Positions 2,781-5,379 of a stretch of 6,995 nt of DNA are shown piece after piece. A program made the position numbers and the translations under genes. The stretch spans positions 1 through 6,995 of the forward strand of contig JACPZR010000171.1 in NCBI GenBank assembly GCA_016195395.1, read 5' to 3'. The first letter of the stretch is position 1, and every line of letters starts with the position of its first letter. This DNA is from Spirochaetia bacterium (GTDB lineage Bacteria > Spirochaetota > Leptospirae > Leptospirales > Leptonemataceae). Under the pieces are notes generated by a model. The model ran no database searches. It was given only the letters and a program-made list of their open reading frames with translations, and was not told the DNA's origin.

Positions 2781-2864
2781 TGCGCAGCGACCGTGATTCG
2801 CGAAGGGCACCGTGACGCTCCCAGGACGAACGAAACCAATCCCGCGGAGCGACCGTGGTCCGCG
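2781..2864 (+). repeat. Direct repeat of a hairpin module (two copies, 62 bp apart)
   Basis: The 22-bp segments 2781-2802 and 2843-2864 match at 18 of 22 positions and share the core GCGACCGTG. The second copy forms a perfect 6-bp stem, CGCGGA with TCCGCG, around a 10-base loop. The first forms nearly the same stem (TGCGCA with TTCGCG, one mismatch and one wobble). After the first copy, 2814-2836 (GACGCTCCCAGGACGAA and onward) resembles the tail of the larger structured repeats at 2957-2972 and 5321-5337. The stretch therefore looks like a degenerate or differently assembled member of the same family. It starts at the base after the stop codon of the 146-aa gene and shows no coding character. 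Confidence 0.6.
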
Positions 2865-2871
2865 CAGCGGA

Positions 2872-2972
2872 ACACCGCCGGCATGGAGGCCGGCGAAGGG
2901 CGAACAGCCCGCATCCTCCATCAGCGGCATGGGGAGGCCAGGATGGCCGAGTCATGACGCTCTCAGAACGAA
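2872..2972 (+). repeat. Structured repeat element, copy 1 (four hairpins)
   Basis: This copy matches 5238-5337. From 2896 to 2972 the two differ at 9 of 77 positions by hand alignment. Hairpins in order: H1 is CGCCGGC (2876-2882) with GCCGGCG (2889-2895), loop ATGGAG. H2 is GGGC (2898-2901) with GCCC (2907-2910), loop GAACA. H3 is TCCTC (2914-2918) with GGGGA (2931-2935), a 12-base loop and one T-G pair. H4 is GGCCA (2936-2940) with TGGCC (2944-2948), loop GGA. A tail follows with the palindrome GTCATGAC (2951-2958). The wobble in H3 would be an A-C mismatch in the opposite-strand RNA, a weak hint that the plus strand is the functional RNA strand. The element lies in the 3' untranslated region of the 146-aa gene and abuts the terminator. 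Confidence 0.85.
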
Positions 2973-3004
2973 AAAACCGCTCCCTTTTGAGGAGCGGCCT
3001 TTTT
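2971..3004. terminator. Bidirectional intrinsic terminator
   Basis: A 7-bp GC-rich stem, CCGCTCC (2977-2983) with GGAGCGG (2991-2997), encloses a 7-base loop. It is flanked by six A on the left (2971-2976) and CC plus five T on the right (2998-3004). Read on the minus strand, the stem is followed directly by six T. This makes a strong terminator for the secreted-protein gene, whose stop at 3026 is about 22 bp away. On the plus strand it can end transcripts of the 146-aa gene. Its position between convergent genes fits use in both directions. Confidence 0.9.
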
Positions 3005-3025
3005 GAAATCCAAGTGAAGCTTGAA

Positions 3026-3961
3026 TTACATCTTCATCATGTAGCCGAATTTGTAAACCGCACCACCCACAACAGTAATCTTGGAGGTAATGGGGCCCAG
3101 AGCAGCGCGTGTGGAGTCGTTTTTACCACCAGCCACGCCGTATCCTGCATCGAGAAGGTCTTCCATTTCGAAGAACAGCTTGTCGCCGCCGCTTCCGATT
3201 TTGCCGGAAACGCCCACTACGAAGTTAGGAGCAAAGCCTTTCACGCGCAGACGCACGCGTTCGTTGTAGATATCGCCACCTTTTTGGTTACCCGCTACAC
3301 CGCGAACGGTGTGCGCTCCAACCGGAGTACCAAGGAGGTAGGTGGGGATGTCCCCAAGGTTTTTGCCATAAAGGTCCCAACCGCCGGTGAAGTAGTTGAT
3401 ACCACCGCCCATGTAGACGGTTGCGGAATCGCCAACGTTTGCTTTCAAGCCCACATAGACGGGCACATACATTGCTTTGAAGTCCCAAGATACATGGTAC
3501 CATTCCACAGTGGCGATGGTTGCGGAGGTATCTCCACCCATAATTTTCTTGTTGTACATTACGCCGGCGCGCATCCACATCAGATCATAGTCTTTCTGAT
3601 AGAAGAGGTTCACCAGACCGCCGCTCATAGCGCCTTCGGTTCTTACCGTGATCGCTTGATTGGTGGACTTTGACAGGGCAATCAGTCGGTTTTCCGACAT
3701 GATTACATATTGGCCGGTCCCGTTGACGGTTTCCGGGCAAAGCGTACCGGCGGTGCCGCAACCAAAGCTGCCGGCCTTGGCGAATGTCGTATCCGCGTTA
3801 CTTACAGAGCTCTGGAGACCATCATTGGTGATGGTGCCGCCCAGTTGGCCGAGGTTGAACATCAGACCCCCGCCGATGCCTACATAGGTCCCTTCAGCGT
3901 AAAGACCTGTGGCTGCCAACGCAACGACCAAGGCCATCGTAAATTTTATAACTTGTTTCAT
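3026..3961 (-). CDS. Secreted, probably outer-membrane beta-barrel-like protein, 311 aa
   Basis: The N-terminus is a classic Sec signal peptide: MKQVIKFTMALVVALAATGLYA, with predicted cleavage after Ala22 (YA/EG). The mature protein is rich in Gly, Thr and Tyr, with many short alternating polar and hydrophobic stretches typical of beta strands (TYVGIGGGLMFNLG; MYVPVYVGLKANVG; SATVYMGGGINYF; KITVVGGAVYKFGY). This suggests an outer-membrane barrel or porin-like protein. I recognise no specific family. The C-terminus, FGYMMKM, lacks the usual final aromatic residue, so the barrel assignment is inference. Two Cys (in GCGTAGTLCPE, an extracellular-loop-like segment) could form a disulfide. ATG 3961 is preceded by GGAGG (minus strand, 3977-3973) at 11-nt spacing. 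The gene is monocistronic: a divergent intergenic region lies upstream and a strong terminator sits just beyond its stop. Confidence 0.85.
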   Translation of the reverse strand: MKQVIKFTMALVVALAATGLYAEGTYVGIGGGLMFNLGQLGGTITNDGLQSSVSNADTTFAKAGSFGCGTAGTLCPETVNGTGQYVIMSENRLIALSKSTNQAITVRTEGAMSGGLVNLFYQKDYDLMWMRAGVMYNKKIMGGDTSATIATVEWYHVSWDFKAMYVPVYVGLKANVGDSATVYMGGGINYFTGGWDLYGKNLGDIPTYLLGTPVGAHTVRGVAGNQKGGDIYNERVRLRVKGFAPNFVVGVSGKIGSGGDKLFFEMEDLLDAGYGVAGGKNDSTRAALGPITSKITVVGGAVYKFGYMMKM

Positions 3962-4214
3962 GAAGCTGTCTTCCTCCAGAATCGCAGATTCGGTTGTTTT
4001 TGATATCAGGGTAGGGCCTACCCCGCGGAGGAGTGACGACCACGGATGGCCACCGTCAATTAAAAAAGGGCAAATTTGACGAAAAAAAAACGAACCCGTG
4101 ACAAGAAAAACCGTTCTAAACTGCCCATAACACCATGTTAGCGATACGTATTGACGGGGACTCGACAGGGTTTTTCCTTGATCCAGCCCCTATAACGTAG
4201 AGGCAGGAGTGAGC
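3962..4214. other. Divergent intergenic region with candidate control signals
   Basis: These 253 bp separate the minus-strand secreted-protein gene from the plus-strand TPM gene and show no coding character. There is a 7+7-bp inverted repeat at 4009-4023 (GGGTAGG, one base, CCTACCC), which falls in the leader of the minus-strand gene. An A-rich tract spans about 4061-4115. TTGACG occurs three times: on the minus strand at 4059-4054, and on the plus strand at 4076-4081 and 4151-4156. The first two form an imperfect inverted repeat. TATAAC at 4191-4196, 18 nt before ATG 4215, could be a -10 box for the TPM gene, but I see no good -35 at the usual spacing. None of these is a confident promoter. 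Confidence 0.4.
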
Positions 4215-5228
4215 ATGAAAAAGATTCTAGTGTTTGCAGCGCTCTTGGCAGCGCCCGTGTGGAGCGTTCTGCCTGAAGTTGTGGATGGCGCCGGGATGTT
4301 CAGCCCCGCAGCCGTCGATCAAGCGAATTCGAAGATTCGTGATATCCAGTCCCGCACCAAGAAGCAGTTGGTCGTTGAAACCGTAAACTCCCTGGGGGGC
4401 CGACGCGTGGAAGACGTTGCCCGCGAGCATGCTCGTGACAGGCAGGTGAACGGCATCCTCGTATTGATCTCGAAGGATGACAGAAAGATCGCCACTGAGG
4501 TGGGATCAAAGACGCAGAAAGTTTTCAGCTCCAGCGACGCGAGAGATCTGCGCGACCGCGTGACCGCAAAGTTCAAGATGAAAGATTTTGACGGCGGCCT
4601 TCAAGCTGCGGTGGAAGTCTACTCGGACCGCATTGGGTCATCTGTCTCATCGTCGGGCAGCAGCAGTTCCAGCAATACGGATACACGCACTAGCACGTCG
4701 GACAGCAGCAGTTCATCATCGAGCTCGAGCGGATCCGGGATCTGGGGTTGGATCAAGGGTATGGGAATCGTGGGAATCATCTGCACGCTCCTGTCGCTCT
4801 TCATTGTGTACAGAATTGTAAAAGGAATTTTCAAAGCGATCTTCGGAATCTTCCGTCCAGCGCAGCCGCAGCAAATGCCGACGCAGCAGCCGGGCGGTAC
4901 ATACCAACCGGGCTATCAACCGGGTTACCAGCCGGGCCCCATGGGTGGCGGAGGCATGGGCTTCATGGGAAGTCTGATGACCGGTATGCTCGGCGCCGCA
5001 GCAGGGAGCTGGGTCTATGACAAATTCAGCGGCGGCGGTTCTGCGTACGGACATGGCACCTCTGACATGACCAACTCATCATCGAGCAATACCGACAATG
5101 GATCCGATTATTCCAGCGGCTCGAGCGGCTGGGATTCTGATTCCGGATCGTCGTCCAGCGGCAGTTCCGACTGGGGTGGCGGCGACTCCGGCGGCGGAGG
5201 AGATTCAGGTGGTGGAGGCGACTGGTAG
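4215..5228 (+). CDS. TPM-domain (YgcG-like) membrane protein with low-complexity tail, 337 aa
   Basis: ATG 4215 is chosen over the in-frame GTG 4209 because AGGAG (4205-4209) then stands 5 nt upstream. Residues 1-17 are a signal peptide (KKILVFAALLAAPVWS). Residues ~20-140 form a TPM domain: VVDGAGMFSPAAVDQ, QLVVETVNSLGG, NGILVLISKDDRKIATEVG and FDGGLQAAVEVYSDRI. A serine-rich linker (~142-175) leads to a transmembrane segment (~177-200, GWIKGMGIVGIICTLLSLFIV). Next is a Pro/Gln segment with a tandem PGYQ repeat, a glycine-rich patch ending GAAAGSWVYDKF (259-271), and a Ser/Asp/Gly tail ending in repeated DSGGGG and DW. That order is typical of YgcG-type proteins, which are predicted to display the TPM domain outside the cytoplasmic membrane. 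The domain has been linked to photosystem II repair and phosphatase activity in plants; its bacterial role is unclear. A structured repeat begins 9 bp after the stop. Confidence 0.87.
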   Translation: MKKILVFAALLAAPVWSVLPEVVDGAGMFSPAAVDQANSKIRDIQSRTKKQLVVETVNSLGGRRVEDVAREHARDRQVNGILVLISKDDRKIATEVGSKTQKVFSSSDARDLRDRVTAKFKMKDFDGGLQAAVEVYSDRIGSSVSSSGSSSSSNTDTRTSTSDSSSSSSSSSGSGIWGWIKGMGIVGIICTLLSLFIVYRIVKGIFKAIFGIFRPAQPQQMPTQQPGGTYQPGYQPGYQPGPMGGGGMGFMGSLMTGMLGAAAGSWVYDKFSGGGSAYGHGTSDMTNSSSSNTDNGSDYSSGSSGWDSDSGSSSSGSSDWGGGDSGGGGDSGGGGDW

Positions 5229-5237
5229 ACATCGCAC

Positions 5238-5337
5238 ACACCGCGGACAGGATGTCCGCGAAGGCCGAACAGGCCGCATCCCCGGTCAGCGGCATGGGGA
5301 CGCCAGGATGGCGGAGTCATGACGCTCTAAGAAAGAA
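5238..5337 (+). repeat. Structured repeat element, copy 2 (four hairpins)
   Basis: This is the second copy of the element at 2872-2972. H1 is CGCGGAC (5242-5248) with GTCCGCG (5254-5260), loop AGGAT. H2 is GGCC (5263-5266) with GGCC (5272-5275), loop GAACA as in copy 1. H3 is TCCCC (5279-5283) with GGGGA (5296-5300), a 12-base loop of which nine or more positions match copy 1. H4 is CGCCA (5301-5305) with TGGCG (5309-5313), loop GGA. The palindrome GTCATGAC is at 5316-5323. Stem differences from copy 1 are compensatory (two pairs in H1, one in H2, one in H4). There is no T-tract, so it is not a standard terminator. It fills most of the gap between the TPM and STAS genes and could act in the 3' end of one or the leader of the other. 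Confidence 0.85.
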
Positions 5338-5379
5338 GTTGCCAGATGACCGCTTTGGGGCAGGCATGTCTCAAACCTG

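Follow-up and report, generated by a model that had tools for sequence, protein, structure and literature searches.

The window analyzed here, a 6,995-nucleotide stretch of the Spirochaetia bacterium contig JACPZR010000171.1, carries two copies (A and B) of a hairpin-rich element of about 100 nt downstream of unrelated genes, which raises the question of what the element is and what it might do at both places. A repeat search of the window paired positions 2885-2972 with 5250-5337 (88 nt, 86% identity), and the full alignment of copy A (101 nt) with copy B (100 nt) contains 14 substitutions and one gap. An earlier, sequence-only reading had taken both for genuine structured copies, and the alignment bears this out. 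The four compensatory stem changes it named (C-G/G-C and G-C/A-T in H1, G-C/C-G in H2, G-C/C-G in H4) were all found on both sides with no pair broken, together with the single T-G/C-G pair change and the nine differences in the 77 columns past H1. When 14 random substitutions were introduced into the structure drawn in that reading, four compensated pairs were never obtained in 200,000 simulations (maximum three, 42 times). Relative to dinucleotide shuffles, the fold reached z values of −2.0 (copy A) and −2.6 (copy B) on the + strand and of −1.9 and −1.5, respectively, on the − strand. Conservation of the element's structure between the copies is supported.

Of the four-hairpin layout originally proposed, H1, H2, and H4 are present, but the 3' half is better described as one long hairpin than as H3 followed by H4. 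H3 competes with this longer hairpin, which encloses H4 (Table 1). The drawn stems of the long form amount to −41.9 kcal/mol in copy A and −38.7 kcal/mol in copy B, compared to −36.1 and −36.2 kcal/mol with separate H3 and H4. The minimum free energy (MFE) structure of copy A corresponds to the long-hairpin form; the free MFE structure of copy B (−42.1) retains H3 and has additional pairs.

Table 1. Features of the two element copies and their surroundings (positions refer to the window)
Feature	Position	Strand	Description or basis
Shortened related piece	2782-2833	+	H1-like hairpin and GTGACGCTC..AGGACGAA tail; repeat families D2, D8; limits by eye
Second H1-like piece	2844-2867	+	Repeat family D8; limits partly by eye
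Copy A	2872-2972	+	3' of the 146-aa gene stop codon, 5' of the terminator-like hairpin
H1 of copy A	2876-2895	+	Loop ATGGAG, C-G closing pair; A(N)GGAN site 1
H2 of copy A	2898-2910	+	Loop GAACA
Long hairpin of copy A	2923-2961	+	Outer stem AGCG.CATGG / TCATG.CGCT, internal loop GGA/GAG, inner stem H4; MFE, drawn-stem energies, R2 match
H4 of copy A	2936-2948	+	Loop AGGAT, C-G closing pair; A(N)GGAN site 2
Terminator-like hairpin and T run	2977-3004	.	Between the convergent 146-aa and OmpL1 genes; sequence read directly
Copy B	5238-5337	+	Repeat search and alignment
H1 of copy B	5242-5260	+	Loop AGGAT, C-G closing pair; R2 match
H2 of copy B	5263-5275	+	Alignment
Long hairpin of copy B	5288-5326	+	Drawn-stem energies, R2 match
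H4 of copy B	5301-5313	+	Loop AGGAT, C-G closing pair

As had been stated before, both copies lie 3' of stop codons; they are on the sense strand of the upstream genes. The stop codon of the 146-aa gene is located at 2778-2780, and copy B starts 10 bases past the TPM stop codon and ends 42 nt upstream of the STAS gene. In a comparison of 12 OmpL1 loci, the 146-aa gene was located beside OmpL1 in five and was not found there in seven. The interval between its stop codon and OmpL1 comprises 245 nt in the window and 53-168 nt in the five relatives that share this gene pair. Because the interval is longer in the window and a terminator-like hairpin is found in it in all five relatives, copy A appears to have been inserted upstream of the terminator. 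Shorter pieces related to the element sit upstream of copy A (Table 1).

The sequence-only reading did not recognize the element as a named family, and the window had no match in Rfam 15 at E ≤ 1; all matches at E ≤ 10 were far below threshold. Among the CsrB-clan models, rsmX scored 12.9 bits on copy B against a cut-off of 56, which is no match, and none of these models was among the matches at E 0.5 on loci of 20 relatives. The check suggested in that reading, a covariance model built from the two window copies (R1), was run on 30 order-level and 48 class-level genomes, none of which yielded a convincing match over the full length. R1 matches in G021 were rejected since they look coding, and one in G013 (27.6 bits, E 4.2e-4) was discarded as well; by eye, it is a strong hairpin with T's behind it, close to an integron-like region. 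The loose pattern GCGAACAGNCCGCATCC with two mismatches was found in 21 of the 30 genomes; by eye, the 20 loci returned seem to match by chance, most of them within coding DNA. Exact element patterns gave no match in the genome-contig and viral-contig collections, and plasmid and phage searches returned short weak matches only or none. The pattern GGACAGGANGTCC matched 89 times versus 16 times for its mirror image (23 of 48 class genomes), a count set aside as support because many matches fall within coding DNA or adjoin attC-like sequence. Model-free scans of whole loci found A(N)GGA loops enriched weakly or not at all; when all hairpins in G009 and G013 sequence were counted, the motif was weakly enriched over its mirrored form (75 versus 48 and 44 versus 36). 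The idea that the internal loop forms a K-turn, weighed against the usual K-turn rule, was not retained.

The apical loops of the element were not weighed in the sequence-only reading. On the + strand of the window, four of 25 hairpins with a stem of at least 5 carry an A(N)GGA loop, and all four are H1 or H4 of the two copies; on the − strand, the loop occurs in none of 25. A C-G pair closes the loop at all four sites, and the distance from site 1 to site 2 is 56 nt in both copies.

A second covariance model (R2) was built from the modules of nine relatives, with the window excluded and the repeat's first hairpin not included. It revealed a dispersed, covarying two-hairpin repeat in 14 of 48 class genomes and in 35 of 392 sampled Spirochaetota. 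In the relatives, the repeat consists of a hairpin with an A(N)GGAN loop, a spacer of approximately 4 nt, and a second hairpin with a GRA/GAGA internal loop and an A(N)GGAN apical loop. For the second hairpin, 98.5% of 400 cells are paired in 45 distinct rows from the relatives, with 76 cells changed on both sides; for other Spirochaetota (31 distinct rows), 279 cells were compared, of which 98.9% are paired and 21 show double changes. None of 500 shuffles attained the pairing or the double-change figure of either set.

The first hairpin carries an A(N)GGAN loop in 57 of 67 distinct cases, whereas in random stretches such a loop was seen in 75 of 8292 hairpins; in six of the 38 distinct class cases, this hairpin is the pattern used to pick some of the loci. 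The closing pair is C-G in 57/57 of these hairpins versus 24.7% of control hairpins, with 15 + 16 distinct stem arms. The cleanest subset, chosen outside the class via R2 alone, gave similar values (loop 26/29, closing pair 26/26). The distance between the two GGA motifs, measurable in 53 of the 57 cases, is 19-34 nt. Since loops and internal loops are fixed throughout the phylum while the stems change, the apical loops are considered the informative part.

The loops and the GGA/GAG internal loop of the window copies agree with this Spirochaetota repeat. The top three of 24 R2 matches in the window are all located on the + strand inside the copies, at 2933-2952 (20.8 bits in the long hairpin of copy A, E 0.0028 when only the window is searched), 5245-5258 (H1 of copy B, 13.9 bits), and 5298-5317 (long hairpin of copy B, 13.4 bits). 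H1 of copy A reached just 5.2 bits, and a joint search of the window and 41 other sources gave no window match at E 0.05. R2 aligns with the copies at no more than model positions 6-25 or 9-22, leaving the outer stem unmatched, and the place of the family's 4-nt spacer is occupied by H2 and a linker. Taken by their sequence and predicted fold, the window copies look like a variant of the dispersed repeat.

High-affinity sites of Csr/Rsm proteins are A(N)GGAX loops on C-G-closed stems (PMC4005645), and a CsrA dimer spans sites 10-63 nt apart, with an optimum beyond 18 nt (PMC7652899). CsrA of Leptospira binds hairpins with GGA hexaloops in EMSA (PMC8668096). As judged from sequence, the loops and the closing pair of the repeat match this recognition rule. 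Two relatives contain arrays of such hairpins within tRNA clusters. In G046, an array of six tandem modules with a 53-nt spacing fills the 327 nt that separate tRNA-Cys from tRNA-Leu and lies on the tRNA strand, and in both G046 and G048 the interval from tRNA-Ser to tRNA-Thr is filled by hairpins with ACAGGATGT-type loops, also on the tRNA strand. Because of their placement between tRNA genes, these arrays are likely transcribed together with the tRNAs. A csrA gene was found in all genomes with at least three R2 matches (9/9 in the class, 10/10 outside) and in 19 of 23 R2-positive genomes outside the class; no csrA match was obtained in G013, G120, G108, G215, and G219, which have one or two R2 matches each. 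This co-occurrence discriminates little, because almost all class genomes have csrA (43/48).

On balance, the element is probably a CsrA-binding hairpin repeat, a variant of a repeat dispersed across the Spirochaetota and partly mobile. The repeat RNA would present two binding hairpins for CsrA (Rsm), whose spacing would allow one CsrA dimer to dock on both. A copy in a 3' untranslated region, such as copy A, would bind CsrA, and this could shield or uncover the 3' end of the mRNA that carries it; many copies together might titrate free CsrA, much like CsrB and RsmZ in other bacteria. The copies would spread as small repeats, and for this reason unrelated genes would carry them.

A repeat mobile purely at the DNA level (REP- or MITE-like), whose single-stranded hairpins are recognized by a transposase or another enzyme with the loops as the mark and RNA playing no part, is rather unlikely. 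Such mobility is suggested by near-identical copies with differing flanks in G156, by similar copies within each of G086, G111, and G132, by copies placed inside other palindromes, and by the inserted appearance of copy A against the relatives. Gene orientation also bears on it: the upstream gene is sense-oriented in 31 of 43 class cases (a hand count with uncurated ORFs in which several copies share a gene; 16 to 6 in a script tally without covered cases), but in 19 of 40 cases in other Spirochaetota, where orientation is random. Against it, a Y1 transposase (PF01797), searched in the nine class genomes with at least three R2 matches, was present in G038 and G046 and unmatched in G009, G015, G006, G010, G034, G005, and G016. 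A window scan judged by eye revealed no GTAG or CGTC tag common to both copies at the hairpin foot. Its single GTAG overlaps the TPM stop codon, and its three CGTC are on the − strand within the long hairpins, one of them overlapping the H4 foot of copy B without a counterpart in copy A. Further arguments against a DNA-only repeat are the fixed A(N)GGAX loop and C-G pair on freely varying stems, the arrays on the tRNA strand, and the ratio of G-T to A-C pairs on the loop strand (7 to 1), although the model search itself favours G-T.

The orientation data also bear on the proposal that the element stabilizes or processes mRNA 3' ends through its stable hairpins alone, with an incidental loop motif. 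Its stable folds and the sense-strand position of both copies past stop codons, with copy A before a terminator-like hairpin, are in line with such a function. The orientation bias did not hold outside the class (19/40), leaving a general function in 3' UTRs unsupported there, and hairpin stability gives no reason to expect the fixed A(N)GGAX loop, C-G closing pair, and GRA/GAGA internal loop in the relatives; we regard this explanation as improbable. It is very improbable that the copies belong to an integron, as attC-like recombination sites or cassette-borne hairpins. By eye, some relatives appear to contain integron-like arrays, and some GGACAGGANGTCC hairpins adjoin attC-like sequence. 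attC sites contain R' (GTTRRRY) and R'' (RYYYAAC) boxes, but neither was found on either strand in 2860-2990 or 5225-5350, and the neighbor genes of copy A have the same order in five relatives. Two functionless duplicates with structure kept by chance would fit the presence of just two full copies in 7 kb, yet the simulations never produced four compensated pairs and R2, made without the copies, ranks their hairpins first in the window, which makes this the least credible of the explanations.

Compared with known systems, the repeat read as a CsrA-binding element resembles the sequestering RNAs CsrB and RsmZ in its several C-G-closed A(N)GGAX apical loops with dimer-suited spacing (PMC4005645, PMC7652899). 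The six-module tRNA-Cys/tRNA-Leu array of G046 is the closest likeness to such a sponge; unlike CsrB and RsmZ, the repeat is short, is dispersed in many intergenic copies, and has no Rfam match. BOX-type repeats consist of modular hairpin units in varying combinations and are similar, by description alone, in their modular hairpin build. Like REP/REPIN and CGTC-tagged repeats, the element is small, extragenic, palindromic, and multi-copy, with genome-particular families (PMC3733652), but the window copies have no common GTAG/CGTC foot and the constant part is the loop and internal loop rather than the stem. That work reports CGTC repeats in Spirochaetes, with no transposase linked to them (PMC3733652). 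The CsrA targets on Leptospira flaB mRNA share the GGA hexaloop hairpins bound by leptospiral CsrA; those sites are directly 5' of start codons, whereas the present element consists of paired hairpins in repeats (PMC8668096). Leptospira genomes are described in the same source as having no csrB and csrC homologs, with one CsrA-like ncRNA reported in L. biflexa (PMC8668096). In titles and abstract openings of the open-licence papers listed, CsrA-linked palindromic or dispersed repeats of this sort were not found; a paper on Alcanivorax deals with ordinary CsrA-related sRNAs (PMC9788540).

The outcome is a searchable covariance model and a few testable bases. More tentatively, and with somewhat less than even confidence, we propose that mobile or once-mobile docking repeats for CsrA dimers, present in genomes throughout the Spirochaetota and located in 3' UTRs and tRNA-cluster arrays, would together act as a distributed CsrA sponge and bring many unrelated mRNAs under CsrA control. 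Should the repeats bind CsrA, the Spirochaetota would possess a distributed CsrA antagonist or target set made of dispersed repeats. A small repeat would then bring genes under a global RNA-binding regulator, and the regulator would be rewired by repeats.

As the sequence-only reading had claimed, the hairpin element is present in two copies, A (2872-2972) and B (5238-5337). They align over 88 nt with 86% identity and differ at full length (101 and 100 nt) by 14 substitutions and one gap. The compensatory stem changes it described were likewise borne out, with four pairs altered on both sides between A and B and none broken; four compensated pairs were obtained in none of 200,000 simulations of 14 randomly placed substitutions. 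For copies A and B, respectively, folding z-scores were -2.0 and -2.6 (plus strand) and -1.9 and -1.5 (minus strand). That reading had drawn four hairpins (H1-H4) per copy, of which H4 was kept, but the 3′ half is read here as a long hairpin around H4 with the internal loop GGA/GAG. The long hairpin beats H3 in A and B when the drawn stems are compared, although the free MFE structure of copy B retains an extended H3; the two forms are mutually exclusive. Four of the 25 plus-strand hairpins in the window have A(N)GGA loops, all of them H1 or H4 of the two copies. Each of these loops is closed by a C-G pair, and the two sites of each copy lie 56 nt apart. In copy A, the H1 loop ATGGAG (2883-2888) is complementary to CTCCAT after H2 (2916-2921); the counterpart in copy B is shorter (GGAT of the loop and ATCC). 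This complementarity could make a pseudoknot or mask the GGA.

Features of the window (R2, covariance model built from relatives only)
Feature	Start	End	Strand	Remark
Phosphoenolpyruvate-protein phosphotransferase	1	1374	+	
Pseudouridine synthase	1367	2315	-	two frames
146-aa protein	2340	2780	+	
Long hairpin enclosing H4, copy A	2923	2961		
R2 match	2933	2952	+	20.8 bits, E 0.0028, window alone
OmpL1-type porin	3026	3961	-	
TPM-domain protein		5228	+	
R2 match	5245	5258	+	13.9 bits
Long hairpin enclosing H4, copy B	5288	5326		
R2 match	5298	5317	+	13.4 bits
STAS-domain protein	5380	5721	+	
DUF1569 protein	5746	6321	+	
Conserved protein	6417	6995	+	without Pfam match

In five of the 12 OmpL1 loci compared, the 146-aa gene adjoins OmpL1; the interval from its stop codon to OmpL1 is 53-168 nt in these relatives and includes a terminator-like hairpin. 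The window interval measures 245 nt; here the stop codon is followed by two shortened pieces and copy A before the terminator-like hairpin is reached, so that copy A appears to be an insertion ahead of the terminator. Because of this position, it should belong to the 146-aa gene transcript, provided transcription reaches the terminator-like hairpin. Among the other genes, the overlapping pseudouridine synthase frames, one with the S4 domain and the other with the catalytic domain, reflect a sequencing error or a real frameshift. The conserved protein at the window's end is common to MAGs named Leptospirales, Leptospiraceae or Spirochaetales (identity up to 78%) and is a useful marker for the Leptospirales-type group. 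On the strength of this sharing, the organism is taken to be related to the Leptospirales; the closest matches of two other window proteins are only 46% and 53% identical.

The element lies outside Rfam, as had been supposed: the window gave no match at E 1, and matches around the copies at E up to 10 were far under threshold. The covariance search proposed earlier, using a model of the two copies (R1), returned no convincing full-length relative in the 48 relatives' genomes (the class). A short form 5′ of ompL1 in one relative (G013) matches copy B at 90% of 39 nt (E 1.6e-6), the shared parts being H1, H2 and GCATCC.

A hairpin survey in relatives yielded a two-hairpin module, the second hairpin of which has variable paired and nearly fixed unpaired bases. 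In this hairpin, an outer and an inner stem are separated by G(A/G)A on the 5′ side and GAGA on the 3′ side, and the inner stem carries an A(N)GGAN loop. It was modelled as R2 from nine modules of relatives, with the window left out (81/81 seed cells paired; six of nine pairs changed on both sides). Searching the window alone with filters off gave 24 R2 matches, of which the top three all fall within copies A and B; matches in the copies cover the apical part only, and H1 of copy A scored 5.2 bits. When the window and 41 other sources were searched together, no window match was obtained at E 0.05. R2 was present in 14 of 48 class genomes (E 0.1). Among 392 sampled Spirochaetota it occurred in 35 (E 0.01; 12 in the class, 23 outside). 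Its counts within genomes are lower bounds, as both searches scored some of their candidates only. Two alignments of R2 matches, which are fitted to the model and thus biased towards it, had 98.5% of 400 cells paired with 76 double changes (45 distinct rows, including the nine seeds) and 98.9% of 279 cells paired with 21 double changes (31 distinct rows); none of 500 shuffles reached such figures.

The hairpin just upstream is absent from R2 and so provides an independent test. In 57 of 67 distinct stretches (31/38 class, 26/29 outside) its loop is A(N)GGAN, compared with 75 of 8292 hairpins from random stretches of the same loci, where a slightly higher stem score was required for the motif count. 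A C-G pair closes the loop in 57/57 of these cases and in 24.7% of controls, its stem arms comprise 15 and 16 distinct sequences, and the GGA-to-GGA distance to the second hairpin is 19-34 nt (53 measured). The class stretches represent 45 of 60 R2 matches, after removal of five duplicates and ten weaker matches (35.7 bits or less; one of 34.4 bits was kept). The outside stretches represent 41 of 42 (one of 27.5 bits was dropped), obtained on 40 sequence stretches from 16 genomes chosen by the author among the outside hits. Some class loci had been picked by a hairpin pattern, which the first hairpin equals in six of 38 cases; the outside set, selected through R2 alone, gave the same result.

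The element in copies A and B is real, structured and dispersed, and probably belongs as a variant to a phylum-wide repeat absent from Rfam. The copies are best regarded as a form of the two-hairpin repeat, with loops and GA-rich internal loop alike and a different spacer. Of the REP hallmarks, no tag at a hairpin foot was common to the window copies, and Y1 transposases were absent from seven of nine class genomes with at least three R2 hits; the boxes of attC sites were likewise not found in the window copies. Compared with CsrA-binding RNAs, the tested sequence features are present, whereas the Rfam models were unmatched. The high-affinity Csr/Rsm site is described as an A(N)GGAX loop, with N and X free, directly on a C-G-closed stem (PMC4005645), and one CsrA dimer is reported to bridge two sites 10-63 nt apart, best above 18 (PMC7652899). 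Judged by sequence, every part of this site rule is found in both the relatives' repeats and the window copies. Leptospira CsrA is described as binding GGA hexaloop hairpins, and csrB and csrC homologs are lacking according to the same account (PMC8668096).

A csrA gene was found in every genome with at least three R2 hits (9/9 class, 10/10 outside), although csrA is commonplace in the class regardless (43/48 genomes). In one relative, it comes after frames resembling flgL and fliW (by eye), and its product matches solved CsrA structures. The csrA search gave no match in five genomes with one or two R2 hits, which MAG gaps may explain. These gaps were counted against CsrA binding, together with the mobility described below and a mixed gene orientation: in the class, upstream genes were sense in 31/43 cases and downstream genes in 21/41 (author's count on uncurated ORFs, with shared genes), a script tally of upstream orientation without covered cases gave 16 to 6, and outside the class upstream genes were sense in 19/40.

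Some repeats outside the class form genome-specific families with near-identical copies at different places, at times within other palindromes, which indicates that these repeats move or once moved. At L234, L243, L246 and L253, the module lies within a larger palindrome (arms e.g. AGATTGCG and CTCGCAATGACA) and has a repeat-in-repeat look. Matches to the group II intron RF02001 (cut-off 32 bits) were seen in G034 near two-hairpin modules, one in L167 (1303-1425, 32.6 bits) and one in L190 (1610-1723, 31.2 bits), the latter overlapping a weaker second R2 match. Integron-array-like sequence with attC-like repeats was noted by eye in G013 (L023, L027, L028), G003 (L091, L114) and G015 (L015, L093, L115), with strong hairpins ahead of some attC-like sites and a recombinase-like reading frame in L023.

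Arrays of the repeat lie among tRNA genes. In G046 (L171 1224-1550, -), six tandem R2 matches spaced 53 nt apart fill the 327 nt from tRNA-Cys to tRNA-Leu on the tRNA strand, with both hairpins in each module. Between tRNA-Ser(gct) and tRNA-Thr(ggt) of G048 (L113 1309-1570, -; 262 nt), a hairpin scan (stem 4 or more, loop 5-6) found A(N)GGAN loops in 6/6 sense and 0/6 antisense hairpins. The corresponding interval of G046 (L132 1817-2044, -) has tandem ACAGGATGT hairpins, of which the scan counts 1/9; the ACAGGATGT-type loops of both Ser-Thr arrays are on the tRNA strand. No such hairpins were found in the remaining tRNA intervals of L171, L132 and L113, and in L175 (G010) a module is close to a tRNA gene on the opposite strand. 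We infer that the arrays are co-transcribed with the tRNAs. With somewhat better than even confidence, copies A and B are best explained as putative CsrA-binding hairpins spread via small repeats. The strongest candidate for a transcript that would act as a CsrA sponge is the Cys-Leu array of G046.
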